Part shown: positions 20,279 to 39,796 of the stretch, one piece after another
Numbering within the stretch: position 1 is the first letter of the stretch
How the letters are laid out: each line of letters begins with the position of its first letter
Assembly (NCBI GenBank): GCA_003142185.1
Contig: PLOR01000097.1
Coordinates: forward strand, 1 to 63,520
From: Bryobacterales bacterium
GTDB lineage: Bacteria > Acidobacteriota > Terriglobia > Bryobacterales > Bryobacteraceae
Direction: 5' to 3'
Length of the DNA: 63,520 nucleotides
Position numbers and translations under genes: made by a program
The notes under the pieces: generated by a model
Told to the model about the DNA's origin: nothing
The model's database searches: none
What the model saw: the letters and a program-made list of their open reading frames with translations, nothing else

Positions 20279-21615
20279 ACCAACTCAATACCAGCGAAGA
20301 ACAGTTGCGCGCCGAGGTCGAAGATCTCAAGCGGCAGTTGGAACAGCAGAAACAAGAGCTGGCGGAGGGCCGCGGCGGGGCTGCCGCCGGACCTTCCGGG
20401 CGGACGCTGATGGTCGTCGTGCTCCTGTTGGTGGCGCTGGCGGTGGCCGGATACTTCCTCGGGTATGCGCCGCGCCAGCACCGCGAACAAGTGTTGGCGG
20501 CCGAATCGCGCACCTCATCCCAGAGCCTGCTCGAGGTGAACGTCGCGGAGGTCAAGCGCTCCGGCTTGCAGACCAGCCTGGTGCTGCCCGGCAGCATCGA
20601 GGCCGTCACCGAGGCTCCCGTGCTGGCGCGCGCCTCCGGCTACATTCGCAAACGTCTGGTCGATATCGGCGACCGCGTTGCCGCCGGCCAGGTGCTGGCG
20701 GAAATCGAGGCGCCGGAAATCGAGCAACAGATCGTCCAGGCCAAGGCCCAGGACGACCAGGCCGCTTCCGCCATCCAGCAGGCGCAGGCCAACCTGGTGC
20801 AGGGCCAGGCCAACCTGCAACTGGCCGAAGTCACCAAAGACCGCTGGCAAAAGCTGTTCGACAAAGGCGTGGTCTCGCGCCAGGAAAACGACACCTACCG
20901 GGCCCAATGGGCCGCCCAGCAAGCCAACGTGGACGCGCTCGAAAAAGCGATTGCCGCGGCGCGCAGCAATCTGGGCGCGGCCCAGGCCAACCTGGCGCGC
21001 TTGAACGATCTTCAGAATTACCAGACCGTGCGCGCCCCCTTTGCCGGCGTCATCACGTTGCGTAACGTGGATACCGGGGTTCTGGTCACCGAGGGCGCGA
21101 CGCTGCTCTTCCGCATCGCCCAGACCGGCCGGCTGCGCATTTACTTGAACGTGCCGCAAGCCGACGCCGATTCGGTGCGGCCCGGCCAGAAGGCCACGCT
21201 GGTGATTCCGGATCTCGCCGGCCGGAAATTCCCCGCCGTCGTCACCCGCTCCGCCAATGCGCTCGACCCATCCAGCCGCACGCTGCTGGTCGAGGTTCAG
21301 GCCTCGAACTCGGACGGCCTGCTGATGCCCGGAATGTACGCCCAGGTAGACCTGGCCGTCCCCCGCAAGGAGCCGCCGCTGATGATTCCCGGCGATACCC
21401 TGGTGGTGCGCGACAATGTCACGCAGGTAGCTGTGGTCTCCGCCGACGGCACGGTTCACTTTGCGCGTATCCAGTTGGGACGCGATCTCGGCGACCGGCT
21501 GGAAGTGCTCTCCGGACTCGAACAAGGCCAGTGGCTGACGGTCAACCCCAGCGATTCGGTTCGCGAAGGCGTGAGGGTGAAACCGCTGCGCGCCGAGAAG
21601 TCCGCAGCCCCGTAG
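20275..21615 (+). CDS. RND periplasmic adaptor (membrane fusion protein) with cytosolic coiled coil
   Basis: 446 residues. Residues 1-35 form a charged coiled coil (SEEQLRAEVEDLKRQLEQQ), followed by one membrane segment (TLMVVVLLLVALAVAGYFLG, about 44-64). The rest is a typical adaptor: lipoyl half (LARASGYIRKRLVDIGDRVAAGQVLAEIEAPE), an alpha-hairpin rich in Gln/Ala, second lipoyl half (VRAPFAGVITLRNVDTG) and beta-barrel. The N-terminal cytosolic coiled coil is not part of the standard architecture. Operon partner of the pump before it and the channel after it. Confidence 0.92.
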   Translation: MNQLNTSEEQLRAEVEDLKRQLEQQKQELAEGRGGAAAGPSGRTLMVVVLLLVALAVAGYFLGYAPRQHREQVLAAESRTSSQSLLEVNVAEVKRSGLQTSLVLPGSIEAVTEAPVLARASGYIRKRLVDIGDRVAAGQVLAEIEAPEIEQQIVQAKAQDDQAASAIQQAQANLVQGQANLQLAEVTKDRWQKLFDKGVVSRQENDTYRAQWAAQQANVDALEKAIAAARSNLGAAQANLARLNDLQNYQTVRAPFAGVITLRNVDTGVLVTEGATLLFRIAQTGRLRIYLNVPQADADSVRPGQKATLVIPDLAGRKFPAVVTRSANALDPSSRTLLVEVQASNSDGLLMPGMYAQVDLAVPRKEPPLMIPGDTLVVRDNVTQVAVVSADGTVHFARIQLGRDLGDRLEVLSGLEQGQWLTVNPSDSVREGVRVKPLRAEKSAAP

Positions 21616-21651
21616 GGGCCGGGCCTGCCCGGACAAGTGCTGGAATCGCCC

Positions 21652-23745: not shown

Positions 23746-24705
23746 TCACTTCCCGTTTTTCGCGGGTCCGGGTGCGGTGTTGTCGGGTGGGGCGTCAATC
23801 GTCGTCGAGTTGCCGCTGAGCCGCCGGTGCAGCACGGGGCCGTCCCCTTGGCCCCTGGGTATTTCAAGATCTTCCAGCCGCGCCAGGCGGCTGCGGATAT
23901 TCTCGAATTCGGAAGTGTCCACCACGTACTCGGGTCGCGGCTCCAGCCGGCGTTGGATCATTCGCTGCGCGGCCCTGATGCGGCCGGCGGTCATGGGATG
24001 CGTCGAAAACACGCGGGCGACTAAGCCGGGCCTGGCTTTTTCGAGTGTCGCGACGCGCTCGAAAAAGTCGACGAACGCCAGCGGATCGTAACCCGACCGG
24101 TAGAGGTATTCCAGGCCGAGCGCATCCGCCTGCTTCTCCATGCCGCGTGTAAACTGCATGAACCCCATCGGCACGGCGATACCCACCAATTGGCGAACGG
24201 CGTAACCCACCCAGCCGCCGGCAAACACCAGCGGCATGCTGAGATAGTTGGCCACCTCCTGGCGCGTGGCCTGCTTGGTGGCGTGCCGGGCGGCCACGTG
24301 AGCGATCTCATGCGCCAGCACGCCGGCGAGTTCGGCCTCGCTCTGGGTGCGCAGGAGCAGGCCGGCGTTGACGAACAGAAAACCTCCCGGCAGCGCGAAG
24401 GCGTTCACCTCATTCGAATCGATCACTTTGACCGTGAAGGGCACCCGCGCGTCCGAGTTGCGCACCAGGTTTTGCGACAGGCGGTTCACGTATTCCGCCA
24501 CCACCGGGTCGTCGAGCATCCGCGCCTGCCGCTCGACCTCGGTCGCCATCTGCCGGCCCAGTTCAACTTCCCGCTGGAGAGAGTAGATGTTGACGCCCCT
24601 GCCGGGATTGTCATCGTCGCCCGAGGCGTGAGCTTGCGGGTCCTTCGCCGCCGCGGCGCAAGCCAGCAACACTCCGGCCGCCAAAATAACCCACGCGCGT
24701 TTCAC
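23746..24705 (-). CDS. M48-family zinc metalloprotease, likely exported
   Basis: 319 residues. A signal peptide leads into a possible lipobox (GVLLAC, Cys16). The catalytic motif is HEIAH with AGVLAHEIAHVAARHA; the third zinc ligand is in the downstream QADALGLEYL. The family includes BepA and HtpX-like peptidases that clean up misfolded envelope proteins; a BepA-like periplasmic location fits here. The start is GTG 24705 with AGGT upstream. It follows the SpoIID-like gene by 61 bp on the same strand and may be the last gene of the 24-40 kb operon, or have its own promoter. Confidence 0.9.
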   Translation of the reverse strand: MKRAWVILAAGVLLACAAAAKDPQAHASGDDDNPGRGVNIYSLQREVELGRQMATEVERQARMLDDPVVAEYVNRLSQNLVRNSDARVPFTVKVIDSNEVNAFALPGGFLFVNAGLLLRTQSEAELAGVLAHEIAHVAARHATKQATRQEVANYLSMPLVFAGGWVGYAVRQLVGIAVPMGFMQFTRGMEKQADALGLEYLYRSGYDPLAFVDFFERVATLEKARPGLVARVFSTHPMTAGRIRAAQRMIQRRLEPRPEYVVDTSEFENIRSRLARLEDLEIPRGQGDGPVLHRRLSGNSTTIDAPPDNTAPGPAKNGK

Positions 24706-24766
24706 GGGACACCTATCTGGTTCCAGGTTACACCGTTCGGCGGCGGATGCCTATGGGCCAGGCGGA

Positions 24767-25795
24767 TTACTCTCTGTATCCGATCGCCGTATTCGGGTAA
24801 TAGTAATTCAGAATCACCCGATGATTGGCGCCGGAAGCCGCCATCGCGCCGGCGCCGCGTTGGCAGAGACCGATGCCATGCCCTGCGCCACGGCCGTGCA
24901 CCACGATGTGGCCGTCCTCGCGCCTTACCTGGTAGTTGTATCCCGGGATCACATTCCAACCGAGAACCCGCCCCAATTCGATCCGATTGGCCTCGGAACG
25001 GTTCTCGAGTAGCGTGGCGTAGTTCGCGGGAAACGAGCTCTCCCAGTCCGGCGCGCTGGTCTGGCAGGATGGGCACTCGATCGAGTAGTACGGGTATCCT
25101 TGCACTGCCATACCCGCTTCGGCCAGGGTTCGGGTCCGGCCGCCGCAACTGGCGGAATAGAGCGCCGCCAACACAGCGCCCGCGTGGACCAGCACCAAGC
25201 CCTTGGTCTCGGCAGCGGCTACGCTCGCCGCGCCGGTTTGCTCCGGCGGTTCTCTTAGGAATTGGCAGTGGGTGGTATCGCAGAACTGAAAATCCCGATG
25301 CCGTGCGGGAGATGCCAGGTAGAAAGAGCGGGCTGCGATGGCCTGGGCCTCGATCGCTTCGAGAGGCGCGCCGGGAACGCTCTCAGCGGCAACCGCCGAC
25401 GCGACCGCCGTCTCGAGATCGGTGATGACAATCGGAACCAATTCGCCGCCGCGGACCCGCACCTCGAGAGATGCCACGAACCGCCGCTCGATCTTCCCTG
25501 GCACACTCAGGAAGAATTCCGTCCTGCCGCGCGAACCGGTTGCCAGAACCACCGCGGAACTGCCCGCGCGGTTCCCGGCCGTGCACAGAACACCCGAGCG
25601 GCCCACGCGCAAGCGGGCCGTTCGCGAGCCCTCCAGATTCCACACGGCCCCCGCCACGTCGACCCGCAGCGCACGGCCGGACGCCGCCCGCAAGATCAGT
25701 TCAGACGGATGAAACAGACCGAAGACACCGATGCGAAGGTCTTTGCCGCTCGCGGCTGCGTGCAGCGCCAACAGCAGGAGTACGATCCGGCTCAT
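24767..25795 (-). CDS. SpoIID/LytB-domain protein, putative peptidoglycan-acting enzyme
   Basis: 342 residues with a signal peptide (MSRIVLLLLALHAAASG). The SpoIID domain is recognised in the segment VASAVAAESVPGAPLEAIEA followed by QAIAARSFYL, holding the conserved catalytic Glu, then ALYSASCGGRT and HGRGAGHGIGLCQRGA near the C-terminus. SpoIID is a lytic transglycosylase that cuts glycan strands lacking stem peptides; homologues in Gram-negative bacteria act in the periplasm. ATG 25795 lies 1 nt after the stop of the transpeptidase-like gene, so they are translated together. A Cys-x-x-Cys (IECPSC) may bind zinc, as reported for clostridial SpoIID. Confidence 0.9.
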   Translation of the reverse strand: MSRIVLLLLALHAAASGKDLRIGVFGLFHPSELILRAASGRALRVDVAGAVWNLEGSRTARLRVGRSGVLCTAGNRAGSSAVVLATGSRGRTEFFLSVPGKIERRFVASLEVRVRGGELVPIVITDLETAVASAVAAESVPGAPLEAIEAQAIAARSFYLASPARHRDFQFCDTTHCQFLREPPEQTGAASVAAAETKGLVLVHAGAVLAALYSASCGGRTRTLAEAGMAVQGYPYYSIECPSCQTSAPDWESSFPANYATLLENRSEANRIELGRVLGWNVIPGYNYQVRREDGHIVVHGRGAGHGIGLCQRGAGAMAASGANHRVILNYYYPNTAIGYRE

Positions 25796-25796
25796 G

Positions 25797-26546
25797 TTAC
25801 CGCGCTCCCACAAGAACGGGCAGGAGGCGCGCCGCGGTTTCTGCCGCCTGTCTGCCGACCACTCCGTGCACCTGCACGAGGAGAACGTAGCGCGGACTGT
25901 CGCCGGGGTACACCACCACGGCGTAGCCATCGCCCGCCGCTCGTGGCGAATGGGAGCAGGGAGCGGTGCCCGTTTTGGCCAGCGCCGGACCAGGCAGCGC
26001 CGATCGAAGCGCGGCGGCCGTACCGACGCTGGCGCTCAGCCGCATTCCCTCGATCACCTCTGCGACCCCAGGCTCGGCCCTGCGCGAGGCCAATTCGGCA
26101 TACGCGCGCGCGACCTCCAGCGGAGACAGGCGCCAAGCGCTTCCCATACCGAATAACGTATCCCTGTCGCAATCCGCCGACGGCCCGCGCAGGCCGAACC
26201 GGTCCACCACTGCCCAGACGTCCGCGGGAGACACGTCCGCGGCGAGTTGACGGAAGTAGGAATTGCAGGAGTGCGCAATGGCGGCGGCCAGTCCGATGCG
26301 CCCGTGGCCCGTTTTCAGCCAGCAGTTTTCGCCAGTACACTCGTAAACGGGAAAGCGCATGCGGTGCCGCTGGCCGTAAGTAATCGCAGTAAATGGTTTG
26401 ACCAGCGAACCGACCGGAACGGGCACGTCTGGCGCGCGCCAGTCGATCGCGATCACGGTTTTGCGAGTTGCGTCCAACAGAAGATAGGACGTCTGGGCGT
26501 TTGCTGCGAAAACGGCTACGGCGCAGACGACCGCGAACCGAGTCAT
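25797..26546 (-). CDS. Minimal penicillin-binding-protein transpeptidase domain
   Basis: 249 residues including a signal peptide (MTRFAVVCAVAVFAANAQ). All three serine-acyltransferase motifs are present: Ser47-Leu-Val-Lys50 (VGSLVKPFTA), Ser93-Cys-Asn95 (HSCNSYF) and Lys191-Thr-Gly193 (LAKTGTA). The GMGSAWRLSPLEVARAYAEL segment matches class B PBPs. At this size it lacks the pedestal domain and is even shorter than a usual transpeptidase domain, so it may be a specialised cross-linking enzyme or a sensor that binds beta-lactams or stem peptides. It overlaps the upstream gene by ATGA and is followed at once by a SpoIID-type gene. Confidence 0.85.
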   Translation of the reverse strand: MTRFAVVCAVAVFAANAQTSYLLLDATRKTVIAIDWRAPDVPVPVGSLVKPFTAITYGQRHRMRFPVYECTGENCWLKTGHGRIGLAAAIAHSCNSYFRQLAADVSPADVWAVVDRFGLRGPSADCDRDTLFGMGSAWRLSPLEVARAYAELASRRAEPGVAEVIEGMRLSASVGTAAALRSALPGPALAKTGTAPCSHSPRAAGDGYAVVVYPGDSPRYVLLVQVHGVVGRQAAETAARLLPVLVGAR

Positions 26547-28252
26547 CGCGCGAGCTCATAGGTGACGGTCTGCTTCATCGTCTCGCCCTGTTCGGTTGCC
26601 GTGATCGTCGCCGATCTGACCTGCGGGAGCGTATCGCTCAAGCTGACGAGGTTCTGCGAAAGAAATTGCGGCGGCGCGGCAGCGGACGGATTCACCGGCG
26701 CGCGGACGTTATCGAGCTGCCGCATCCAGACGCCGAAATTGCGGCCCTCGCGGTCGTGCCGAAAGCCAGCCGCATAGATGCCGATGTTCGGTGGAAGCGG
26801 CGCGTTGGTCCGCAACAGCATGCGCTCAATCAATGGCTGCGAGTTGGCCACGATCAACCGGTTCCCCTCGACCGCGACTGCCAGCGGGACAAGGCCGTCC
26901 AGCAGGAAGTATCGCAGGCCTTCGCGATTCACTTCGGTCCATTCGACGCCGAGGCGCATGGTGGTCAACATGCCTTCGATGGCCGAAGCGATGGCCTCCC
27001 GGACCGCTGCCGCATCCCAGGCCGATTGACGGACGACGACCAGCGCCCGGTTGGTGCCGATGAAGACGGCGTCCGCTGCCGGGCGCGTCTCTTCCACCTG
27101 GACGGCTGCCGTCAGCTTGTCGGCGTTCAGCAGATGCTGGAGAGCCTCCGGAAGAAGTTGGCCGCTATCATCAGGAAACTCCGGCTCATCGATGCGGATA
27201 TCCAGATCCGCCTCGCTGCCAGCGGCAGTGGCACCACTCGGGGCGGACGGCGCCAGATCGGGCGAGCGTTCGGCGCGCGCTACGGCGGGATTGAGCAGCT
27301 TGGCCGTCAACAGGGCCAACGTTTCGCCCGGTTCGGGGCCAGCCCATCCCCGGTAGAAACCGGCGTCATCGGGAACCAGCCGCAGGGCTTCGGCCAGCGG
27401 CTGGCTATCCGCGGAAGATTCCGTGGAGGGGGCAGCCGCGTGGAAGAGCAGCCGTTCTTCCCGAATCGCCCCGGCGCTCAGGAATAAATCCGAAATACCG
27501 GATGTGTACTGCCGGACCAGCGAGACGTTGCGCTGAATCCAATGCGAGCGGAAATGCGGGCTTCTTCCGAGCGCCGCGAAGTCCATCACCAGCCGCAGGT
27601 CGCCCGCGCCGCCAGCCGCCCGGCTGGGCCGGGCGAACCAGCCTTCATCGCTCATCTTGTTGCGCGCTCCGTGCGCCATCAGCTCCAGCGCGCCGGCGAT
27701 CAGATCTTCACGCGTGGCGAGCAGTAACACGTCATCGGTTGAAGCGAAGGCCACCACGCGGCCCGAAGCATCCGTGCGAACGTAGAAGTCCACACCGCCG
27801 GCCTTGCGAGGCGTGAAGTTCGCTCGCGAGCGCCACAGCACGGTCTCCACCGCTTTGGCCGAGGGCAGGCGAGTCATGTATAGAAACTCGAGCTTGCCGA
27901 TGTCGTAGAGCGCCAACGCGGACTCGGAGCCCGCGATGCTCTGAAGCATCGAAGTGTCCGGTGCGAAGCCGGCCGCGCCGGCGTAGTCCTTGTAGACCTC
28001 GTCGAGCCGCATGAAGAGATGCGACTGCGAGAAAGCGCTATAGTCGGCGCTCGAGAGCCAGTGCTCGCGAACCTGCGAAGCGCGCCAGTTCGACAGAAGC
28101 GACGCGAAGTCCTTGGCCTCGAGGTATAGCACAGGCCCAGCCGGCACAAACTCGCTGAGCTTTGGCGGCGCCGGCTGGCCGACCTGGGAGAGGAGGACCG
28201 CTACGCATACGCCTCCCAGGCCGATTCCGGCTCGCAGCAGATTCTTCTTCAT
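26543..28252 (-). CDS. Exported DUF3352-like protein, 569 aa
   Basis: A signal anchor (GIGLGGVCVAVLLSQVG) precedes a large domain beginning LSEFVPAGPVLYLEAKDFAS. That phrase, the repeated pattern of about 300 residues (YDIGKLEFLYMTRLPSAKAV ... FASTDDVLLLATREDLIAGA; then VVVRQSAWDAAAVREAI ... VAVEGNRLIVANSQPLIERM) resembles DUF3352 proteins, which are exported and of unknown function. Two halves look like a duplication of one beta-alpha domain. It starts ATG 28252, overlapping the end of the giant TPR gene by 4 nt, and its stop overlaps the start of the transpeptidase gene by 4 nt. It is thus central to a coupled operon. Confidence 0.75.
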   Translation of the reverse strand: MKKNLLRAGIGLGGVCVAVLLSQVGQPAPPKLSEFVPAGPVLYLEAKDFASLLSNWRASQVREHWLSSADYSAFSQSHLFMRLDEVYKDYAGAAGFAPDTSMLQSIAGSESALALYDIGKLEFLYMTRLPSAKAVETVLWRSRANFTPRKAGGVDFYVRTDASGRVVAFASTDDVLLLATREDLIAGALELMAHGARNKMSDEGWFARPSRAAGGAGDLRLVMDFAALGRSPHFRSHWIQRNVSLVRQYTSGISDLFLSAGAIREERLLFHAAAPSTESSADSQPLAEALRLVPDDAGFYRGWAGPEPGETLALLTAKLLNPAVARAERSPDLAPSAPSGATAAGSEADLDIRIDEPEFPDDSGQLLPEALQHLLNADKLTAAVQVEETRPAADAVFIGTNRALVVVRQSAWDAAAVREAIASAIEGMLTTMRLGVEWTEVNREGLRYFLLDGLVPLAVAVEGNRLIVANSQPLIERMLLRTNAPLPPNIGIYAAGFRHDREGRNFGVWMRQLDNVRAPVNPSAAAPPQFLSQNLVSLSDTLPQVRSATITATEQGETMKQTVTYELAR

Positions 28253-31200
28253 AAAGTCCCCCGTTTCCCAGCAGCCAGCATCGGCCGGACGATCGCCGGT
28301 TGTTCCACATTCAAACCGACCACGGGTCGCCGCAGCGTGTTTTCGCGGCGGCGGCCGATCTCCGCGTTCACCTCGGCCAGTCGCGCATCGAGGCGCGGAC
28401 TTGGGTCGATTTCCCTGGCGACCCGAAGCAGATGCCCAGCCATCGTCAGGTCTCCCGCGCGCACGAATGCATCGGCCAGCCGTTGCGCGACAGCGGTACG
28501 TTCCGCTTTGGCGAGCCCCTCCGCAGAGAGGAACGATCGGGCCGCCGCCAGCGCCCACCGCCCTTGCTCGCTTTCAAATTCTTCATTGCGGCCCCACCAG
28601 CGTGGAAGAATCGAATCTGCGGCGGCAATCGCGGTTCGGTCGCGGCCGGCATCGAGCGCGGCTCGCACCAGGGCCACACGCACCGCCTCCGGTGCCGGAT
28701 CGATCGCCACCGCTCCCAGAAGCAGCCGCAGGCGGGTGGCGGGATCTTTGGCGGCGGTGGCCGCGCGAACGCGCGCTTCGAAATAGAGCGGCTTTTCGGC
28801 GGCGGTTGGATCGACGCTGCCGGCGGCCAGCAGGTTGAGCTCTCCGCTGCCGATCTGGACGACCGGCCGCACCGCCGACAGCGCGTCAGCGGCCCGGACC
28901 CGCATTTCGTAAGAAGCCTCCGCATCGGCGGACACCGCGGCCAGCGTTTCCGTGCTGTGCCGAATCGCGGCCAGGCGCAGACGAGCGCCTTCATCCCATG
29001 GCGCAGCGCGTTCGCGCGTCGCCAGGAATTCCACCGCCTCGGACTGGTGCCCGGTTCTTTCCAACAGGTCCGCCGCGGCCATCAGATTCTCGAACGGCTC
29101 GACTGAGACCAGGTTCATGCGGCGCAGCAATGCCATCGCGGCGTCGACATCACCGGTTTCAAGCCGTATGCCGGCCAATCCCAGGAAATTGGTTGGGCTC
29201 AAATCGCGATCGTCCAACGCGCGCGTGTACAGGTAATCCAAAACCGCTCGCGCCGATATACGATCGCCCTGGTTGGTTAACTGAGTAGCGGCGCTTTGCA
29301 GGGATTCCGTGGTTGGCGCCTTGGCTCGATCCTGGCGATAGCGATCGAGCCGCGCGGCCAACTCGCCGGATTGCGCGGCGATCACGATTTCAAGATCTCC
29401 CGGCGGATTCTGGATAAGGGCCAGCAACGCGCGGGCGCCTTCGGTGCGGCGGTGCTGGACCAGGTACTGCAACAGCTCAATGCGGCGCTGATTCAGCTCC
29501 GACTGCGCGAAAGTGCGGGCCTCGCCGGCGGCCTGAGCCATCTGGGCGTCCGCGAGTTCGACTATCCGGCGAAGGACCGGCTCTCGCTGCTCCTCGGGGA
29601 TTGCGGAAGATACGATTTGCGCCAGGAAGTTGGCGGAATCGGCGGGCGTCCGCGCTGCGCGCGAAAGATCGAGAATCCAGCTCACGCCGGCTTCCGGTCT
29701 GCCGGCCGCGGCCATCACGCCTCGCAACAACGGTTCCACCTGATAGGCGCCGTTCATGCGGATGTAATCATGAAGAAGCCGGTCGGCTTGGGCTCGCACA
29801 TCGGGGAGAATCTTGTGCTGCCAGGGGAGAGTATTGCGCTGCCCGATGGCAGTGAGAGTGTGCTCCGCCTGGTGCCAGAATTCGGGCGGCACGCGGCCGG
29901 AGTTCTCCTGGCGCCGGAACGCTTCGAGCGCCAGCTTCGTTTGCGCGATGGCGTCATCCTGTTTGCCCTGCTTCCATAGAATATCTGCGATGGCCTGGCG
30001 CGCATTTCCGGCGTTGGGATCGAACTGAAGACCGTCTTCGTACTCCGCAATCGCGCGGTCGTGCCGCCCCAGTTCTTCGTAAGATTGCGCGAGCGCGAAG
30101 TAACCGGCGGCTTGCGCGGGCGCCGCTTCCAGCGTGGCTGGCAGGTAGTCTTCCGAACCGTCACGGTTGGTTAGCCCCAGGTATTCGCCATAGCGCGAGC
30201 CAAAATAGAACCACATCGCGCCGGCCAACTGCTGGTTGCGATCCACCGGCTTGCCGAGGCGCTCTCCGATAGTGCCGCCGCCGAGCAATCCGGCGAATGC
30301 CTGATTCACTTCGGGGGCAGGATCTCGGTAATACAGCCCAACCAGGCTCAGGTAAGCCCGCGCCCACACCGGCGTCTCCGTGTTCCCGCCCCGCGATACC
30401 GCGGCTCGCGCGAATGCACCGTCGCCGGCCTCGATGGCGATTTGCAATCCAGCGTGGCTGCTGGCCGCCAGCTTCAGCCGGCGATCCGGATCGCGCGTGC
30501 GCAACAGTTCCAAGTAGCGTTGAAGATCGATGCCGCCCTCGTCCTGCGACAACACGCGGAACTCGCTTTCGGCGTCCCCCGCGATGGCGTAGGCCTGCGC
30601 TGCCTGGCCGAGCACCTGCTGACTGAAGCCGGGCGGTCGGTCGCGTTTCGCACGCCAGTACCGCTCCAGCAGAGAACCGAGCTCGGCGAATTGCATCCTG
30701 GACTTCTGCAACTCGACGATCCGCGATAGGTGCGCCTGGGCGGACGGCGCATCCGGCTCCGCCAGCAGCAGGTCGCTTCGCCAGCGAACCTCGCGCTCTT
30801 TCAGCCCCGCGAACTGCGCCAGTTGCAGCAGGCTGTCATTCCAGGTTGTCGTGTTGCTCGCAGTCGCCCTCGCCTTTTCGAGGAATGCGGCCAGGGAGAC
30901 CTTTTCTTCGGGGGTGAAGTAAGTGTTGGCGGTCTGACCGATCTGACGCAGCGCGAGATCGGCTAACTGCGGAACGGCTTCGCGCTGCGGCAACTGCATG
31001 CCGGCCTGCTGAGCGGCGTAGAGGCGCCGATAAGCCTCTTCGTGCTTGCGCAGCCGCGTCATCACCCGCGCGTATAGTTCAGCGCCTTCGCCCTGGTCAA
31101 TCAGCAGCCGTGGGCCGGCGAGATCGCAACCGCGGCCGGCGAATGTCGCGGCCTCCTGCAATAAGCCCCACTTCTCCAGGGTCGCCGCCGCGTTGAAGAA

Positions 31201-34200
31201 CAGATCGGGTTTCGCGGGCCGGCCTTCGATCATCGCGGCTTCGACGGCTTTCACCGCTTCCGCGGGCCGCCGCTCGCGCGCCAGAAGCTCGGCGACTTTC
31301 AGCAGCCATTGCGGATCGCGATAACTCAGCGCGTAAAGATTCTTGTACGCTTCGATCGCCTGATCGAAGCGCGTCAGTTTCTCTTCCAACTGTGCCTGCG
31401 CGATCCGCAGGTCCAGCCGATCCGGACGAACCGCAATGGCGCGATCATAAGCCGAAACGGCCGCCGGGTAATCCTCGAACTGCGTTTCGAGGCGCGCCAG
31501 CGCGATGTGCAGCCGCACGTCTTTGGGAGATTCGGCGGATGCCTTGGTGTAATAACCGGCCAGCCTCGGCTGAAGCCCGTGCCGTGCCGCGAACAGAGCC
31601 GCATCTTTGACCAGATCCTCATCTTCCGGGTATCGGTTGACGATTTCGATATACTGATCGACCGCCGCGGCATACTCCTTCAGTTGCTCCAGCGCCGGGA
31701 TGATGCCGCGCCGCAAACCGGCCACGCGCTCGTTGCGCTCGACGATAGGAATGGCCGCGTGGCTCATGTCCGCAATCTTGGCAGCATAGAAATCGCGGAG
31801 CTGCTGATACTCGCCTGCGCGCGCATACGTATCCGCCATGGCTGCCAGGTAATCCGCGTTGAACGGTTCGCCCGCCAATAATTCGGCAAGCAGGTCTCGC
31901 GCACGGCCGTACTTGGCCGACTCGGCGGCTTTTTGGGCAGCTTCGAAAGTGAACTGTTTCTTGAAAACCGCATTCGACGAGCGCGCCGCAGCCGCAAGCG
32001 TATCCACCGCCTGCTCGGGCAGATGGTTGCGCCAATAGAAGTCCGTGGCGGCGCGCACCACGCCGAGGATGGCGGGGTTCGCGCGCAGTACGTCTTCGAT
32101 GACCGTGCGGGCCGCCGCGACATCCGGCTTGCTCTCGTAATAACGGGCCAGCGCCAGCCGAAGGCGTATGCGCTCCACATCGTCGGTCGCGAGCGCGATC
32201 TGCCGCTCGAGCACCGATTCGCGCACGTTCTCGAAACCGAGGCGGGCGGCTGCAGCGCCCAGATCCTCCAGCAACTCCGGCGAACTGGTGCTGCGCGTCA
32301 AGGAAAGTAGGAACGCGGCCGCATCGTCTCTGCGGTTCTGCTGCTCGAGGATTGCCAACCGCAGCGCCACAGCAGCGCGATTTGGATTGCCGCTCGTTAC
32401 AAGCGCGACTGTCCGAGTTTCGATCATCGGCCGCAACGCAGGCCGGCGGGCGAGTTGGAGCAGGCGCGAGCGCGCGGGAGAAGCGCCTTCGGTTCCAGCC
32501 CCGCCGGTTTCGAGCGCGCCCTTGATGTACTCCTCGACTGCGCGATCATCGTCGCCCTTGTTCTCATAAATCGCGCCAGCCTGATAGGCATAAAGGGTGG
32601 GATCGGAGAGTTTCTGGCGTCCCTCCGCCAGCAAGCGGAGCGCGTCGTCAAACTGGAAGTAGTCCCAAAACACGGTGGCGGCTTCGAGATACCCGTCCGC
32701 ATTTCCCGGTTCGATTTGGGGGATGCGGTTCCAAAACGGGCGCGCCTGCGAAAAGCGTTCCCGATCCGCGTAGATCTCGCCGGCCTCGGTCAGCGCCGCG
32801 CGGTCGCCGGGAGCGTACTTTACGACGTTCTCGACCAGAGCTACCGCTTTCGCCGCGTACTCCGGCCGATACGCCGCCAACGAGCGATCGACCGCCGCGG
32901 CGCGCAGGACGATCGATCGATCGCCGGGATACTGCGCGGCCAGCGCGTCGAAGACCGGTGCGGCTTCTTCGAAATGCGATTTCCAGGCCGCCATCTCGGC
33001 AACCAGCTTCGCTCCCCAGGGGTTGGCGGAGGCTAATTTCGACGTATCGCCCGCCTGCGCGCGAAGCGCATCGGCCTCCCGCTGTTCTTCGTCTCCATAG
33101 GTGGAAAGGAATAACTGCCGGAGGTGATCGTCATAGAACCAATACTGGCGGAGTAGCTCACGGTAGGCGCGACGATCGAGGGTCTCTTTGCGTGAGTACG
33201 CGTCGAGTAAGTTGCGGACAAACTGCAAGTTGTTCGGGAAGCGCTGATGAGCGTATAGGTTGACCTGCCGGTAGGCGGCTGGGCCGACTGCGGAGGAATT
33301 GACCAATTCATGGAAGTACATTTCCAGGTCGGTGCCGGAGAATATTTTGACCACGTCGACTGTGAGCTTCTCAAACTCCGCGCGGCGCTGGCGGCGCAGA
33401 TACCAGCGAGCCAGTTTGTGCGTCCAGGAGGCGTCTGGGAAGCGTTCCATAGCTTTGCGATAAACGGCTTCCACTTGCCCGCCCAGCTTGTTCTCATCCA
33501 GAAATGCGGCCAGGCGTTCATAGAGTCCCGGATCGTCCGGATTGCGGTCAATCTCGCCGCGGCAGACCGCCAGCGCATCCATCACCCGGTCCAGCGAAAC
33601 CAGGCGCGAGATATAGCGGTCCAGCACGCGTGCATACTCGGGCGAGCGTGCGCCGCTGGCGGTGTCGGTTTTTTGCGCGGCCTGGCCGGCTTGCTCGCCG
33701 TCGGCTGCCACCGGCACCGCGTAGACTTGTCCGCCCCCCGTGAACTCCCCGAACTGGGATCGCGCCCCCTCCGCGGGCACCGGCGCTGACGGCACGGCTG
33801 CCCCGCCCAGCGGCACGCCGTCCGCCTTGGCGGCCAACTCCTTCAATAATGCGTCGTAGAGGGCGAACTCTTCGCGCGGCTGCGCCTTGCGCGCATACGC
33901 GTCCGCCATATCCAAGGCCACCGTCGCGCGCTGCGGAGCGGACGGAAATGCAGTCAGAAAGTCACGGCCATGGCGAATCACGCCGTCGCTCTCGCCATAA
34001 ATGGCGTAGGCTTCTATCAAGCGCGCATGCAACGCGGGCCGCTCCGCCGACTGCGGAAACTGGCGGTCGATCATGCCGATTAACTCGAAAGCGCGCGCGC
34101 GATGGAAATAAGCCGTCGCACCCTTTTCCTGATCGGCCAGGCTGGTGCGCGGCGATTCTGAATTCAGCAGCAGCGAGAGGATCCCGTTGAGGTACCCCGG

Positions 34201-35445
34201 ATAAGGGTCTATGGTGGCGATGTCGCGATACAACGAAAGGTCGCCAGACCCGAAGCGAATGGGCTCTTCGGGCGACGTCAGCAGCACATTCGCGATTCCG
34301 GCGAGGGCCTGCTCGCGCGATGCCGCGGGTGCGCCCGGCAGGCTGTACAGCGCGTAGTAATGACGGATGGATTCGTTCGGGTCCTGCGCCTGGTCGAACA
34401 GAAGAGCGAGGGTGGTGAGCTCGTCGGCGGTCCACGTTTGGTGGCGAGCTTCCTTATTCAGCCGGAATTCGACCAGGGCGCGCCGCGCGGCAGGCTGGTT
34501 GCCCAGTTTGCGCAGGCCAAAAAACAGCTTGGCGACCGCTCGCAGATCCTGGGGATTTTTCTGGACCGTGGCGCGGGATTCGGCGAGAAACAGGCGAAGC
34601 CGCCCCGCTTTTTCGAGCATGTCGAGATACGACTCGATAAGGCTGGACGGCCAGAGAGGTTGGAATTCGCGCTCATAGAGCGCGAGCGCCTGGGCCGCGT
34701 TTCCGCGACGCAATTCCAAGTCGGCTCGGGCGGTGAACGGGTAGATCCGGTCATCCGGAAACGCTTTCTGGTAAGCGGCGATCTGCCGCTCTGCGGCGTC
34801 GAACTGGCGGTGGTCGCGCAGGTAATCGAAATACCGAGTGTACGGCTCCGTTTCCTGCGGGTAGCGCGCCATCCAGTCGCGGTAAGTTTGGTCGACTAAG
34901 TCGGCCGGCAACTGCTGGGTCCGAATTAACTCGATCATTTGCCCGAAGGTGCGCCAGCTACGCTGCCTGGCGGCGGGAGTAAGCCTTTCCGCCGGCGCGG
35001 ACGGGGCCAGCGCAGCGGCCCGCAGGGCCTTCATCTCATCGGCAGGCTGCAAGCGCCGGTGATAGAACTGCGCCAGCGCAAGCTGCCCTTCGGCCGAATC
35101 CGGCACGGTCTGCGCGTACTCCTGCCAATCGGCCTCGGCAGCCGCGAAATCCAATTGCAATTCCGCTTCACCCGCGCGCAGACGGTATAACTCGGCGTTG
35201 GCAGGCGATGCGGCAATCAAGTTAGTCAAGGCGGGCCGCGTCTCGCTCGGCGGCCTGCGCACGCGAACCGCGCCGTTGGGCCACGCAACACTGCGGAAGA
35301 AAGCGTCCTGGATCGAATTGGCTTCGAGATACTTCAGCCAGTCGCTCATCTCCGCGCGCAACTGCGGATTGGCAACGGCCAGGATAACCGCTCCGCCGAA
35401 CAGCCCGGAGCAAACCAGCAGGCGGGAACTATGGCACCACTTCAA
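28249..35445 (-). CDS. Giant exported TPR protein, 2398 aa
   Basis: The largest protein in the window. Start TTG 35445 has GAGGAGG 6 nt upstream. The first 30 residues are a signal or membrane anchor (LLVCSGLFGGAVILAVANP). From about residue 60 to the C-terminus it is a string of helix-turn-helix units of the tetratricopeptide type (for example ALARLETQFEDYPAAVSAYD, AIAEYEDGLQFDPNAGNARQ, AEADWQEYAQTVPDSAEGQ), tens of repeats in all, with no catalytic domain visible. Such solenoids form scaffolds for protein complexes. It overlaps the VIT/VWA gene by 17 nt and the next gene by 4 nt. An extended periplasmic or surface scaffold is inferred. Confidence 0.9.
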   Translation of the reverse strand: MKWCHSSRLLVCSGLFGGAVILAVANPQLRAEMSDWLKYLEANSIQDAFFRSVAWPNGAVRVRRPPSETRPALTNLIAASPANAELYRLRAGEAELQLDFAAAEADWQEYAQTVPDSAEGQLALAQFYHRRLQPADEMKALRAAALAPSAPAERLTPAARQRSWRTFGQMIELIRTQQLPADLVDQTYRDWMARYPQETEPYTRYFDYLRDHRQFDAAERQIAAYQKAFPDDRIYPFTARADLELRRGNAAQALALYEREFQPLWPSSLIESYLDMLEKAGRLRLFLAESRATVQKNPQDLRAVAKLFFGLRKLGNQPAARRALVEFRLNKEARHQTWTADELTTLALLFDQAQDPNESIRHYYALYSLPGAPAASREQALAGIANVLLTSPEEPIRFGSGDLSLYRDIATIDPYPGYLNGILSLLLNSESPRTSLADQEKGATAYFHRARAFELIGMIDRQFPQSAERPALHARLIEAYAIYGESDGVIRHGRDFLTAFPSAPQRATVALDMADAYARKAQPREEFALYDALLKELAAKADGVPLGGAAVPSAPVPAEGARSQFGEFTGGGQVYAVPVAADGEQAGQAAQKTDTASGARSPEYARVLDRYISRLVSLDRVMDALAVCRGEIDRNPDDPGLYERLAAFLDENKLGGQVEAVYRKAMERFPDASWTHKLARWYLRRQRRAEFEKLTVDVVKIFSGTDLEMYFHELVNSSAVGPAAYRQVNLYAHQRFPNNLQFVRNLLDAYSRKETLDRRAYRELLRQYWFYDDHLRQLFLSTYGDEEQREADALRAQAGDTSKLASANPWGAKLVAEMAAWKSHFEEAAPVFDALAAQYPGDRSIVLRAAAVDRSLAAYRPEYAAKAVALVENVVKYAPGDRAALTEAGEIYADRERFSQARPFWNRIPQIEPGNADGYLEAATVFWDYFQFDDALRLLAEGRQKLSDPTLYAYQAGAIYENKGDDDRAVEEYIKGALETGGAGTEGASPARSRLLQLARRPALRPMIETRTVALVTSGNPNRAAVALRLAILEQQNRRDDAAAFLLSLTRSTSSPELLEDLGAAAARLGFENVRESVLERQIALATDDVERIRLRLALARYYESKPDVAAARTVIEDVLRANPAILGVVRAATDFYWRNHLPEQAVDTLAAAARSSNAVFKKQFTFEAAQKAAESAKYGRARDLLAELLAGEPFNADYLAAMADTYARAGEYQQLRDFYAAKIADMSHAAIPIVERNERVAGLRRGIIPALEQLKEYAAAVDQYIEIVNRYPEDEDLVKDAALFAARHGLQPRLAGYYTKASAESPKDVRLHIALARLETQFEDYPAAVSAYDRAIAVRPDRLDLRIAQAQLEEKLTRFDQAIEAYKNLYALSYRDPQWLLKVAELLARERRPAEAVKAVEAAMIEGRPAKPDLFFNAAATLEKWGLLQEAATFAGRGCDLAGPRLLIDQGEGAELYARVMTRLRKHEEAYRRLYAAQQAGMQLPQREAVPQLADLALRQIGQTANTYFTPEEKVSLAAFLEKARATASNTTTWNDSLLQLAQFAGLKEREVRWRSDLLLAEPDAPSAQAHLSRIVELQKSRMQFAELGSLLERYWRAKRDRPPGFSQQVLGQAAQAYAIAGDAESEFRVLSQDEGGIDLQRYLELLRTRDPDRRLKLAASSHAGLQIAIEAGDGAFARAAVSRGGNTETPVWARAYLSLVGLYYRDPAPEVNQAFAGLLGGGTIGERLGKPVDRNQQLAGAMWFYFGSRYGEYLGLTNRDGSEDYLPATLEAAPAQAAGYFALAQSYEELGRHDRAIAEYEDGLQFDPNAGNARQAIADILWKQGKQDDAIAQTKLALEAFRRQENSGRVPPEFWHQAEHTLTAIGQRNTLPWQHKILPDVRAQADRLLHDYIRMNGAYQVEPLLRGVMAAAGRPEAGVSWILDLSRAARTPADSANFLAQIVSSAIPEEQREPVLRRIVELADAQMAQAAGEARTFAQSELNQRRIELLQYLVQHRRTEGARALLALIQNPPGDLEIVIAAQSGELAARLDRYRQDRAKAPTTESLQSAATQLTNQGDRISARAVLDYLYTRALDDRDLSPTNFLGLAGIRLETGDVDAAMALLRRMNLVSVEPFENLMAAADLLERTGHQSEAVEFLATRERAAPWDEGARLRLAAIRHSTETLAAVSADAEASYEMRVRAADALSAVRPVVQIGSGELNLLAAGSVDPTAAEKPLYFEARVRAATAAKDPATRLRLLLGAVAIDPAPEAVRVALVRAALDAGRDRTAIAAADSILPRWWGRNEEFESEQGRWALAAARSFLSAEGLAKAERTAVAQRLADAFVRAGDLTMAGHLLRVAREIDPSPRLDARLAEVNAEIGRRRENTLRRPVVGLNVEQPAIVRPMLAAGKRGTL

Positions 35446-37810
35446 GGGGCACCTCCTCGGTTCCGATGTTGTGCGCGAAATCTTCCGCCGTCACAGTTAG
35501 GTTGTACTTACCGGCTGGTAGAAACGATGGGACCACGATCTTACCCGTGTTAGTCTCCTCACCGGGATTCCAATAAAGGTGAACCGGAGCTGCGCCATAC
35601 AAACGCGCCATCACGGTGCGCGTGGCGCGGGACGCACTTACGCGCATCTCGACGGTTTCCCCAGGCCGGTAACGTGCCCTGGCTAGGTTGACGCGCACCA
35701 CCGGCGGTTTGCTCGCGATCACGAACGTCTTCGCCTCGCGATAGATGTGGCCGTCGCGGTCGCGCAGAACCAGTCTCACCTGGTAAGAGCCATCGGACAT
35801 GTCGGCCGGCGCGAGAAAGCGCGTCTGCCAGATATCCTCTTCCTTCAAGAACCGCAGCTCCTTGACCAAGCCGAACGGAAACAGCGCGACCACGGAGACA
35901 ATGTCGGGATCGGTCTTCACGCGCAGCACCGGATCGCCGGGGCGGATTACGCGAGGCCTCAACAGGGATCGCGGCGCGGCCAGGAACGACGTGTAGGGCG
36001 TGACGAACTTGTATTGGCGCGCCAGGCGGATGATTTCGTCGACGCTGGCGCGGTCCTCGCCGTCGCGCTCGATCTTGGCGAGCAGCGCGTCCACGCGCGC
36101 CTTGGCCCACGTGCGCGGCAGGTCCGCATGCTCCAGGCTCTGTTCCGGCAGATCGGTCGTGACGCTCATGCGAAGAGGCCTGCCCTGATCGAATCCCGCG
36201 GCGGAGAACACGGCGCGCCGTGCAGGCTTTTGATACTCGCCGACCCACGAGGCCAGTGCGCCTCCGAACCAGCTCTCTTCGAGAGGGTAGACGAAGTCGA
36301 GGTTTGCCTTCGGCTCGGCAGCCAGCCGCAGGCCCTCCACCGGACGCCTCCCCAGCTTGGAGAGGAATGCGCCAAGCTTGAACTCGATCGGCTCGGTGGA
36401 ACGCACCAGTTCCCAAACGCCATCGTTGCTCGCCAGCATTTTGAGAAGCGGCATATTGGCGTCGTCGCCAATGCCAAGCACGAAAGTGCGAGGCCGCTGG
36501 CGCTCGGGAATCTTTTTCCAGGCGGCTGCATAAATCGCCGCCAGCTTTCCGTTTTGCAGGGCGCCACGCGTGGCGCCGCCATCCGACAGCAGGACCAGGT
36601 ACGACTCTCGTTGCGCCGGTGCGGCGGCGACGTGGACGCCCTGCGCCAGGCCGGCCTTCAGCGCCTCCTCAAGGTTGGTCGCGCCGCGCAACGAGCTCTG
36701 GCGAACGAATGCGAGCGCCTTCTCGACGGCGTCGGGGCTGGCAGCCACCGGGGCCGGAGCGAACGAGACAGTCTGAGTGTTGAAGAGGAGCACGTTGAAC
36801 GAGTCCGCCGGTTTGAGCGCGTGCAGCAAGCCTTCGAGCGCCTGAAACTCACGATCCAGCTTCTCCCACTGCATGGAAAGCGACGCGTCGAAGAGCGCGA
36901 TCACAGTCTTGGGTCTACTCGAGGCCTCGGAAGCGGCGGCTGCGGGGGCCAGCAGCGCCGACGCCTGGAAAAAACCGGGCTGAGGGCCGGCGGCGCGCGC
37001 GGTGGCATCCGCGGGGGATGGCGAGGGCGGCGCGGGATTCCGGTAGGTGATGACTGCGAGCGTGTTGGTGCGGCTGCTATCGAGAGCGTAGTCGACCGCA
37101 AAGTCCTGGTCCATTTTGAGATTGGCGGCGGTGAAGCTGCCGCGTACCAGGTGCGCGGTGCGCTCGGCAATATGCAGCGGGTAGAGCTTACCGGCGATTT
37201 GAAAGTCTTTCAGCGCATGCTGCGATTTCAGTTCGAACGAGATCTTGAGCTTGCCCGCCTGCTGGGCCTCGTACGCATCCGGACGCAGCGGGATGGCGAA
37301 ATGAGACGTCAGATTTTCGACCGGGATGCGCTCGTGGTATTCGATTTCGAGCCGCTTGGTCCCGTTCGGGGGAATCGGTACGATGCGGGCGCGGAATTCG
37401 GTAGCGCGGCGCGCCTCGTCGGCGCCTCCGTCTCCGACCTGCAGGAGGCCGGGATCGATCGCCTGCCACTTCAGATCGTTATAGACGTCGCCGGCACGGC
37501 GCCGCTCCATGATCACACCGGGAATGCGCGTGACGTCATCCCAAACGGCGAAATCGGAGACGATCGCGCGCACCGGCAGCGCGAAAACATAAGTCCCCTC
37601 GGAAATCAGAGGCGTGTGGTTGGCGAAGATCTGCCGGATGCTGACGCGGGCGTCGCCGTTATCGATGCGAACGTCGATCTCCATCTCCGCCAGCGAGAGA
37701 ACCTTACTGTCGGGCCGGTCCTTCCCGCCCGCAATCAGCACGCCGGCATCGCCTCGCGCCAGCGCGCAAGCCGTCATCAGTGGCACGCACAGCTTCAAAA
37801 GGGCTCTCAT
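35429..37810 (-). CDS. VIT and von Willebrand factor A domain protein, exported
   Basis: 793 residues. A signal peptide (MRALLKLCVPLMTACALARG) is followed by a VIT domain at about 35-165 (VSIRQIFANHTPLISEGTYVF ... FRARIVPIPPNGTKRLEIEY). A Pro/Ala-rich linker leads to a VWA domain from residue 300: the MIDAS metal site is complete with Asp308-x-Ser310-x-Ser312, Thr378 (GATNLEEAL) and Asp410 (LLSDGGAT). The last 100 residues form an Ig-like beta domain (VNLARARYRPGETVEMRVS). The VIT-VWA pairing is known from inter-alpha-trypsin inhibitors and many bacterial surface proteins. ATG 37810 overlaps the propeller stop by 4 nt and has GGAG upstream. Likely binds another protein or ligand via the metal site. 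Confidence 0.9.
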   Translation of the reverse strand: MRALLKLCVPLMTACALARGDAGVLIAGGKDRPDSKVLSLAEMEIDVRIDNGDARVSIRQIFANHTPLISEGTYVFALPVRAIVSDFAVWDDVTRIPGVIMERRRAGDVYNDLKWQAIDPGLLQVGDGGADEARRATEFRARIVPIPPNGTKRLEIEYHERIPVENLTSHFAIPLRPDAYEAQQAGKLKISFELKSQHALKDFQIAGKLYPLHIAERTAHLVRGSFTAANLKMDQDFAVDYALDSSRTNTLAVITYRNPAPPSPSPADATARAAGPQPGFFQASALLAPAAAASEASSRPKTVIALFDASLSMQWEKLDREFQALEGLLHALKPADSFNVLLFNTQTVSFAPAPVAASPDAVEKALAFVRQSSLRGATNLEEALKAGLAQGVHVAAAPAQRESYLVLLSDGGATRGALQNGKLAAIYAAAWKKIPERQRPRTFVLGIGDDANMPLLKMLASNDGVWELVRSTEPIEFKLGAFLSKLGRRPVEGLRLAAEPKANLDFVYPLEESWFGGALASWVGEYQKPARRAVFSAAGFDQGRPLRMSVTTDLPEQSLEHADLPRTWAKARVDALLAKIERDGEDRASVDEIIRLARQYKFVTPYTSFLAAPRSLLRPRVIRPGDPVLRVKTDPDIVSVVALFPFGLVKELRFLKEEDIWQTRFLAPADMSDGSYQVRLVLRDRDGHIYREAKTFVIASKPPVVRVNLARARYRPGETVEMRVSASRATRTVMARLYGAAPVHLYWNPGEETNTGKIVVPSFLPAGKYNLTVTAEDFAHNIGTEEVPLEVVP

Positions 37811-39750
37811 CGGTTCTCCAGATTCTGTTCCAAAATGCGCACCAGGCCGTTATCGGTACCTATATATATGTAGCCGCCGCGCGCGGCAAGCGCCGTTACG
37901 TTGCGGGAGGGCAAACCGGCGGTGATGGCCGTCCACCGGCCTATGCGGCGATCATAGGCGTAGAGGCCGCGGTCGAGCGTTCCGGCGTAGACGCGGCTTT
38001 CGGTGACCAGCATGGCGTTGGGGTTGACGACGAACGCATCGCTCGCTTCCGGGAAGCTGCGCCATTGTCCCATCCCGTCCAGCCGCAGCACGCCGGCGCC
38101 GTATGTGCCGGCGAACCAATCGTCGCCAACCCGGCCGAGCGCGGTGATCCAGTGGTGCTTCAGCCGCGAATTGGAAGTGGTGTAGGAAGCTTTGACCACG
38201 CCGTCTTCGAGAACCGACAGACCGCCGAGCGTGCCCGCTAGAATCGTCCGCCCCTCGGATGCGATGGCGTACACGTGGTTGTTGACCAGTCCGTGAAACG
38301 CGTTCAGGCTGCGGGTTCCGGCGGCATCGACAATGGTGAGCCCGGCTGGTGTGGCGATCAGCATGCCATCCGCCTGGAGTTCCACGTCGGTAACATGGTT
38401 GGCAATCAGGCCATCCTGGCGCGTCAGCGTCTGGCGCTGCCGGGCCGCCGAATCGAACATGACCAGACCGTTGGCGGTGGCGACAGCGGTGCGCCGCCCA
38501 TGGGGATCGACCGCGATCCGGTTGACGCAAAAGACGGCGTCGTTCTCGATATGAGTGGCTCGGGCGAAACCGGAATCGATCACATCGAGTCCCCTATCGA
38601 AGTAGCCGACCCACAACCTTCCGGCGGCATCTGCCGCCAGTGCGGAAATGTGACCGTCGGCCAAAAGGGCGGCTTCCGATTGCAGAATGGATTGCCACGA
38701 GTTTCCATCCGAGCCAAGTGAGTAAACGCCATCGCGCGCGACGGCGTATAGATTCGCGTCCATCCGGAAGATATGTTCGATCCGCGCTGCCGGCATCTGT
38801 GGCTGGCGGACCAACGGGCGCGCGGCCGCAGTCCGCAAGGGAACCGGCACCACGCCCTGCTCCAAAGTGCCGATCAGGAGCGTGTCGCTATGAACGAACA
38901 GGGCGCGGGCGAAAGTGCCGGGCGCCAAGGTTCGCGCGAACTTTCCGCCATCGAACTCAGCCACGCCGGCGGGAGTGCCGGCGAAGGCGCGATCGGCATC
39001 CACCGCGATGGAGAGCACTTGGGGATCGGGCAGCCCCTCGCTGGTTCCGAAACTGTCCACCTGGCCGGCATGAAAGTGTAGCAGCCCCCGATCGATGGTG
39101 CCCACCCAGAGGTTCGCGTAATCGCCGGCCAGCGAAGTGACGCTCAATTTCGCGAGCGACGGATGGAATGCTTTGATCTGCTTGCCGTCGTAGACGATTA
39201 CGCCGTCCTTCTCGGTGCCCAGCAGCACCTGGCCGGTGGAGAGCGGCAAAACGGAGGTGAGCTTTCGGTATGCGGGCTCAACCGGCCGGATCTGACGGAA
39301 CCCGCCATCGCCGAGGATGACCAGCCCTTCGCCTGCGGTTGTGATATACAACTCCGGCTGGCCGCCGGCGGTGCCCACCGCCAGAGTCCCCAACGGCGCG
39401 GCAGGCAGTTCCAAGCCCGGCCGGAAGCGGCGCTTGAGGATGCCCTGTGAATCGTATTCGAAGAGCCCGGCCGGACCGCAGAGGTACAGCCGGTCGTGAA
39501 AGGAAACCGCGTCGGCGAACACGGCAGGAGCCGAGAACCACTCGAAACCGCCGTCCGGTGGATGATCGAGCCGCGCCGTGGTGAATCGGATTTCCGAAGC
39601 CGCCTGCAGCTCGCGGGCAGATTCGGTGGTGGCGCGCGACGCCCGCCACAAGACGCCGGCCGAGTATGCCGCAATTGCCAGCACGCCAACCGCGCCGCCA
39701 ATCAGAAGAATTCTGTTCCTTCCGGGCCTCATAATCTGAAGACTCTCCAT
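37807..39750 (-). CDS. Membrane-anchored beta-propeller (two-component-regulator-propeller type)
   Basis: 647 residues. One N-terminal membrane segment (ILLIGGAVGVLAIAAYSAGV) anchors a long periplasmic domain built of repeats resembling the reg_prop/Y_Y_Y sensor blades: GNSWQSILQSEAALLADGHI, ISALAADAAGRLWVGYFDRG, VYAIASEGRTILAGTLGGLS, VTALAARGGYIYIGTDNGLV. These blades normally sense ligands outside hybrid histidine kinases; here no kinase or output domain is fused. The start ATG 39750 is chosen for GAGG upstream; ATG 39783 is also in frame. It is the first gene of the coupled operon, so it may be the sensing component. Confidence 0.85.
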   Translation of the reverse strand: MESLQIMRPGRNRILLIGGAVGVLAIAAYSAGVLWRASRATTESARELQAASEIRFTTARLDHPPDGGFEWFSAPAVFADAVSFHDRLYLCGPAGLFEYDSQGILKRRFRPGLELPAAPLGTLAVGTAGGQPELYITTAGEGLVILGDGGFRQIRPVEPAYRKLTSVLPLSTGQVLLGTEKDGVIVYDGKQIKAFHPSLAKLSVTSLAGDYANLWVGTIDRGLLHFHAGQVDSFGTSEGLPDPQVLSIAVDADRAFAGTPAGVAEFDGGKFARTLAPGTFARALFVHSDTLLIGTLEQGVVPVPLRTAAARPLVRQPQMPAARIEHIFRMDANLYAVARDGVYSLGSDGNSWQSILQSEAALLADGHISALAADAAGRLWVGYFDRGLDVIDSGFARATHIENDAVFCVNRIAVDPHGRRTAVATANGLVMFDSAARQRQTLTRQDGLIANHVTDVELQADGMLIATPAGLTIVDAAGTRSLNAFHGLVNNHVYAIASEGRTILAGTLGGLSVLEDGVVKASYTTSNSRLKHHWITALGRVGDDWFAGTYGAGVLRLDGMGQWRSFPEASDAFVVNPNAMLVTESRVYAGTLDRGLYAYDRRIGRWTAITAGLPSRNVTALAARGGYIYIGTDNGLVRILEQNLENR

Positions 39751-39796
39751 TATCCTCAAAACAGAGTGCGGCGGGTCGCTCATGCCGTTACCGCTG

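Follow-up and report, generated by a model that had tools for sequence, protein, structure and literature searches.

A conserved six-gene operon of Acidobacteriota encodes predicted envelope proteins and a transpeptidase-SpoIID pair with sequence similarity to YfaQ

Results

Organization of the locus

The DNA analysed here comes from a Bryobacterales bacterium (GenBank assembly GCA_003142185.1, contig PLOR01000097.1), and by the window we mean the whole 63,520-nt stretch. We observed a six-gene operon on the minus strand (39783 to 24767), with the gene for an M48 protease lying 61 bp past the SpoIID gene on the same strand. In the order of transcription, the genes are:

37807..39783, minus strand: PROP, an anchored propeller protein and the conserved first gene (Reg_prop 43.4 bits, cut-off 20.4)
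35429..37810, minus strand: VWA, a VIT/VWA protein with a C-terminal Ig-like part (VIT 58.8 bits, VWA_3 50.9 bits)
28249..35445, minus strand: TPR, a giant TPR protein of 2398 aa with a TTG start (TPR_14 49.5 bits), whose 17-nt overlap with the VWA gene is conserved
26543..28252, minus strand: D3352, a protein with an N-terminal anchor and a TP0453-like predicted fold, without a Pfam family
25797..26546, minus strand: TP, a stand-alone class B-type PBP transpeptidase domain (PF00905 35 bits, cut-off 22.1)
24767..25795, minus strand: SpoIID, a protein of the SpoIID lytic-transglycosylase type (PF08486 51.8 bits, cut-off 23; TIGR02669 137.5 bits, cut-off 83.3)
23746..24705, minus strand: M48 protease, over the Pfam cut-off, a neighbour outside the conserved unit

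The successive junctions of the six operon genes are overlaps of 4, 17, 4 and 4 nt and one gap of 1 nt. PROP has two candidate ATG starts, at 39783 or 39750. The gene positions, the overlaps and the 1-nt and 61-bp gaps given in an earlier sequence-only reading of this DNA proved exact on re-check, and its claim of a signal peptide or anchor on each product agrees with the hydrophobic stretch that we found at the N-terminus of all seven window products. Its family labels also stood for the propeller (Reg_prop), VIT, VWA, TPR, transpeptidase, SpoIID and M48, which all passed the Pfam cut-offs. The label DUF3352-like had to be given up, as Pfam DUF3352 matched none of 54 members of the D3352 family, and the window protein itself has no Pfam or NCBIfam match.

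A promoter scan found 0 (2.9 expected), a terminator scan found 19 (14.4 expected), and a PADLOC run gave no match. On the plus strand, three genes at window 16931-23547 converge on the operon and resemble, by eye, an RND pump, a membrane fusion protein and an outer-membrane channel. A 946-aa exported protein encoded at 40459-43299 on the plus strand resembles, also by eye, a GH31-type glycoside hydrolase.

The M48 protease gene lies outside the conserved unit

The sequence-only reading had proposed a seven-gene unit that included the M48 protease. We observed that M48 was absent within 3 kb downstream in 12/12, 2/2 and 24/24 testable loci of three sets (38 in all, which include three loci with D3352 alone and one contig counted twice). 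M48 proteins are nevertheless encoded in 60 of 61 relatives regardless of whether these carry the operon, and in a genome of the same genus M48 lies on a contig other than that of the operon. Since M48 is not kept beside the operon, we rejected it as an operon member and take the conserved unit to be six genes. The window M48 protein scored 151.3 bits against the BepA protease model NF052400, below its cut-off of 570.

Gene order is conserved and the operon is patchily distributed in Acidobacteriota

D3352 was present in 14 of the 61 relatives (a count that includes the window genome), and strand and order were the same in 13/13 loci of the other relatives bearing it. A scan with a VWA profile, taking one genome per species, gave 117 relatives, of which 80 were listed; all 80 have Acidobacteriota names, and strand and order were kept for the genes present in 80/80 of these named loci. 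Across the phylum, D3352 was found in 29 of 396 genomes, with G419 giving a weak match. The 29 loci that we took come from 26 of the 28 genomes other than the window's; G156 and G183 (one genus) were left out. Two or more operon genes, always in order, occurred in 25 of the 29, three loci (L133, L134 and L136) held D3352 alone, and L150 (from G419) held nothing above threshold.

In total, strand and order were the same in all 118 loci with at least two operon genes, a number in which at least 10 contigs are counted twice. The sets overlap, with at least 9 of the 13 loci also among the 80, and with L123 identical to L034. Co-occurrence and order of these families in Acidobacteriota had been suggested as a check in the sequence-only reading; the order is thus kept, for six genes without M48.

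The first four genes (PROP, VWA, TPR and D3352) form a core, while TP and SpoIID are often absent, SpoIID sometimes lying elsewhere. The complete core was seen in 12/13, 54/80 and 21/29 loci, and many of the remaining loci are cut by ends. The junctions are similarly constant: the overlap is 4 nt for PROP/VWA in 59/68 loci, 17 nt for VWA/TPR in 44/72 (14 nt in 15 further loci), 4 nt for TPR/D3352 in 48/51 and 4 nt for D3352/TP in 37/47, all counted with the start that came closest to a 4-nt overlap, a choice that biases the counts towards 4. When flanking genes were compared as clusters, no family recurred in more than 10 loci, the downstream flanks being short; in the 80-locus set, only 2 loci extend 1.5 kb past the last operon gene, contig or locus ends having cut many.

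In a VWA tree of 37 rows, 15 family labels needed 14 changes, which is the minimum. Families f8, f3, f16, f23, f38 and f27 each lay on one side of a branch, the exceptions being f1 (4 changes) and f83 (3 changes). Because the tree fits the family labels, descent appears to have been mainly vertical with many losses, and the operon looks, from these sequences, like an Acidobacteriota envelope system that is inherited mainly vertically and frequently lost. The distances between sequences, taken pair by pair, were correlated among the six proteins (0.93-0.98 over all rows, 0.69-0.93 within nearer families), which shared descent would also give. A plasmid search returned three weak VWA matches.

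Some genomes hold further copies. The genomes of L133 and L136 have, at another place, a core that is complete or nearly so (L140 and L149), and their lone D3352 genes (L133:10292-13856 and L136:9876-13726) follow genes that by eye are NfeD-like and SPFH/stomatin-like. Two core copies on separate contigs were seen in G405 (L137 and L138).

The core proteins

VIT/VWA proteins bind ligands, and VIT plus VWA is the domain pair of the heavy chains of animal inter-alpha-inhibitor. In the operon VWA protein, the metal-site residues D-x-S-x-S, T and D were kept in 26 of 27 rows, with T changed to S in one. The protein matched TIGR03788 (E 5.2e-42, 144.1 bits), under the cut-off of 551.65. We also considered it as a macroglobulin relative and rejected this, the A2M match having a probability of 8.8%. 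The propeller gave weak matches, below cut-off, to models of PorZ and BamB.

The predicted structure of D3352 (pLDDT 84, pTM 0.80) resembled that of Treponema pallidum TP0453 (Z 12.0, 4.3 A over 216 residues). TP0453 is an outer-membrane-associated lipoprotein, so this predicted fold suggests that D3352 may be attached to a membrane. D3352 and DUF2138 (YfaA) are alike in length and anchor; against a two-sequence DUF2138 profile the probability was 1.8%, covering the N-terminal part only, and Pfam DUF2138 matched 0 of the 54 family members.

TP and SpoIID retain their active-site residues

TP is a protein of 249 aa that consists of the transpeptidase domain only, without the N-terminal non-catalytic domain of a full class B PBP. 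The class B signature is present in both motifs (SxxK, SxN and KTG) and fold. The residues S47, K50, S93, N95 and K191-T194 were invariant in 42/42 sequences near the window, and in three distant rows the last motif reads KTSS. The model (pLDDT 95, pTM 0.92) matched the transpeptidase domains of PBP2 and PBP3, including Helicobacter pylori PBP2 (Z 26.9, 243 residues, 2.8 A). Two other candidate assignments were rejected: TP as YfaT/DUF1175, on comparison, and the C-terminus of TP (window 25797-25905) as kin of TAL effectors, where the phmmer score was summed over near-identical repeats matching one short stretch.

In SpoIID, Glu138, H166, C172, H176 and C177 were invariant in 12/12 sequences, and L128 differs at the His/Cys positions. 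The Clostridioides difficile SpoIID is described as using E101 and as binding zinc through H134, C140, H145 and C146 (PMC6221140, in part). The operon gene is the one SpoIID match of the window genome. The active-site residues of both TP and SpoIID are thus intact near the window.

TP and SpoIID are an accessory pair of the four-protein core

Of the 14 relatives with D3352, 12 had a SpoIID of the type found in this operon (B-type, E < 1e-60), against 0 of the 47 lacking D3352 (Fisher 5e-11, relatedness not corrected). We further examined whole genomes for 26 of the 80 named loci. An operonic TP was found in 23, with SpoIID within 1 kb in 17 and matched strongly at another place in the genome (E 1e-89 or better) in 6. 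The three genomes without an operonic TP (G461, G468 and G478) had neither a SpoIID within 1 kb nor such a strong match. In 25 of the 26, a further match lay elsewhere in a frame of 600-760 aa, the size of a full PBP2. In two of the 12 relatives with both D3352 and B-type SpoIID (G044 and G053, from two genera), SpoIID lies away from the operon and overlaps a gene for a membrane-anchored, BamB-like (PQQ_2) propeller (L176:5376-7813 and L177:9564-12025).

Exceptions to the coupling were also seen. Among the phylum SpoIID matches listed, a B-type one (E 3.6e-61) belongs to G348, a genome in which D3352 was not matched; SpoIID was present with no TP found in L128 and L132, and neither was found in L023, L025 and L127. 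D3352 was the last operon gene in 17 of 24 testable phylum loci (three of the 17 being lone D3352 genes), a count in which diverged TP or SpoIID may have been missed. That wall cutting and cross-linking are the central function, as put forward earlier, is not supported, because PROP, VWA, TPR and D3352 are kept in many loci in which neither enzyme was found adjoining. TP and SpoIID are an accessory pair of the four-protein core.

Macroglobulin operons encode a related, YfaQ-type pair

A divergent SpoIID replaces the B-type in 15 of the 61 relatives, and in 10 of these it adjoins, or is fused to, a mini-TP. In four Bryobacterales relatives the two are fused into a single protein that carries an HExxH stretch in its C-terminal part, is laid out like E. 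coli YfaQ and has intact transpeptidase motifs:

L164:1652-3697, fused transpeptidase-SpoIID protein
L165:4090-6045, fused transpeptidase-SpoIID protein
L166:2704-4728, fused transpeptidase-SpoIID protein
L167:483-2651, fused transpeptidase-SpoIID protein

No A2M gene lies beside these four on the stretches examined, A2M matches being found elsewhere in their genomes; the large neighbour in L166 is not a macroglobulin. In other Bryobacterales, a TP-SpoIID pair stands beside a full alpha-2-macroglobulin gene in L168, L169, L171 and L173, and SpoIID alone does so in L174 and L175. All six adjoining macroglobulins contain the CTEQ thioester motif, and all six loci contain a DUF1175 gene (in L171 and L174 by coordinates). 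DUF1175 occurred in 13 of the 61 relatives, and divergent SpoIID was present in 12 of these 13 versus 3 of the 48 without DUF1175.

The operon proteins matched the fused proteins strongly (TP, E 9.7e-26; SpoIID, E 3.6e-39), and the fused proteins matched YfaQ (E 7.6e-7). YfaQ and its Citrobacter homologue were also matched directly by the operon TP (E 1.9e-7) and SpoIID (E 1.4e-5). YfaQ passes the Pfam SpoIID cut-off, and it has SCG and KTW in place of the second and third transpeptidase motifs. Together, these comparisons show by sequence similarity that the operon pair is kin of the YfaQ-type pair found in macroglobulin operons. PMC12282094 already reports a bipartite YfaQ, with a transpeptidase-like and a SpoIID-like part, together with an envelope phenotype; the link of YfaQ to this operon is new as far as the literature was searched. 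By gene order, MagE would be the YfaQ counterpart in the mag operon.

The window genome itself had 0 matches to A2M (PF00207) and 0 to DUF1175 (PF06672), and none of the seven window proteins matched A2M or DUF2135 (YfaP). A2M is also present in 3 of the 14 relatives with the operon. We considered mutual exclusion of the operon and DUF1175 and rejected it (relatives 1/14 vs 12/47, p 0.26; phylum 3/29 vs 51/367, p 0.78).

Discussion

Possible function of the operon

The gene set and order, the export-type N-termini, the intact active-site residues and the kinship of the pair were observed. The kinship to the YfaQ-type pair points to envelope guarding or repair. In the sources as available to us, P. 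aeruginosa magD guards against some peptidoglycan-targeting T6SS effectors and gives no protection against TseH or B. thailandensis (PMC12663445), and A2M with PBP1c has been proposed to act in periplasmic defence and wall repair (PMC5764988). We therefore tentatively favour, at somewhat less than even odds, a macroglobulin-free cousin of the mag/yfa envelope-guard systems, in which the VIT/VWA, TPR and propeller proteins carry the wall enzymes. The VIT/VWA and propeller proteins might act in the periplasm, binding proteins or glycans where damage or attack has occurred, the TPR protein might hold the assembly together and D3352 might tie it to a membrane. SpoIID would then trim peptide-stripped glycan strands and TP would re-join stem peptides, so that the whole operon would act like the guard systems without a macroglobulin. 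That the products form one complex, what they would bind and their role in guarding or repair are inferred. A stronger version, to which we give about half that weight, is a new macroglobulin-independent envelope immune machine in which VIT/VWA, TPR scaffold and propeller capture the attacking enzymes at the wall and a dedicated TP-SpoIID pair repairs the lesion.

Among the alternatives, a machine for growth or shape, in which a sensor and scaffold complex steers routine local cutting and cross-linking of the wall (the earlier model minus M48), would fit the intact residues of TP and SpoIID and the wider cells of the delta-yfaQ strain described in PMC12282094. The patchy occurrence of the operon (14/61 relatives, 29/396 phylum genomes), the cores without adjoining enzymes and the further PBP2-sized match in 25/26 named genomes argue against it, and we consider it improbable. 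We hold it equally improbable that the four core proteins put together an assembly for the surface or for secretion, with TP and SpoIID opening the wall for it and sealing it again; the enzymes are indeed the part that is lost, and are placed at the 3' end, and the propeller has its weak, below-cut-off matches to PorZ and BamB, but among the flanking genes every family is confined to at most 10 loci (with short downstream flanks).

Adhesion or matrix binding by the VIT/VWA and propeller proteins, unrelated to wall repair, is less probable still. It would agree with the ligand binding of VIT/VWA proteins and with the conserved metal site, but it leaves the coupled TP-SpoIID pair unexplained. 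The variable flanks are what one would expect of a chance neighbourhood of unrelated envelope genes; this reading is contradicted by the constant strand and order in the 118 loci (with at least 10 contigs counted twice), and the correlated protein distances (0.93-0.98) speak against it too, though shared descent alone would give the same. We consider it extremely unlikely.

That the YfaQ-type pair has kin in another large-protein system, unrelated to the first, separates it from the macroglobulin, and a common wall-repair module thereby becomes testable. The macroglobulin-free guard reading, which we prefer, also offers a first hypothesis for the conserved four-protein core.

Comparison with known systems

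No description of the six-gene operon was found in the literature searched (open-licence papers), and the earlier statement that no named system with this gene set is known holds for the same literature. Marine sortase-target proteins (TIGR03788) share VIT plus VWA with the operon, but its VWA protein falls far under their cut-off. The MoxR-vWA ternary conflict systems (PMC7159879, in part) combine vWA with other modules, in one class with propellers; they are centred on MoxR ATPases, whereas the operon products are exported. What was available of the main text of that paper makes no mention of VIT or of Acidobacteria.

Compared by motif, the SpoIID of C. difficile engulfment resembles ours in having a SpoIID domain, a catalytic Glu and a His/Cys zinc-type motif. 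However, C172 and H176 lie one residue closer together than C140 and H145, and no SpoIIP-type partner is among the Pfam matches of the operon. In type I A2M with PBP1c (PMC5764988, as available), a large exported protein likewise stands beside a penicillin-binding enzyme; the operon TP, in contrast, is a stand-alone class B-type domain, and the window genome has no A2M match.

The closest likeness is to the yfa/mag operons (E. coli yfaA-T-S-Q-P; P. aeruginosa magABCDEF), in which a single operon likewise holds a transpeptidase-like plus SpoIID-like pair and an exported partner of very large size. Unlike these, the present operon has no A2M, DUF1175 (YfaT) or DUF2135 (YfaP), and its pair is encoded by two genes with intact transpeptidase motifs, whereas YfaQ is one protein with SCG and KTW. 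By these three absent families the operon stands outside mag/yfa, but by analogy it may work like it.
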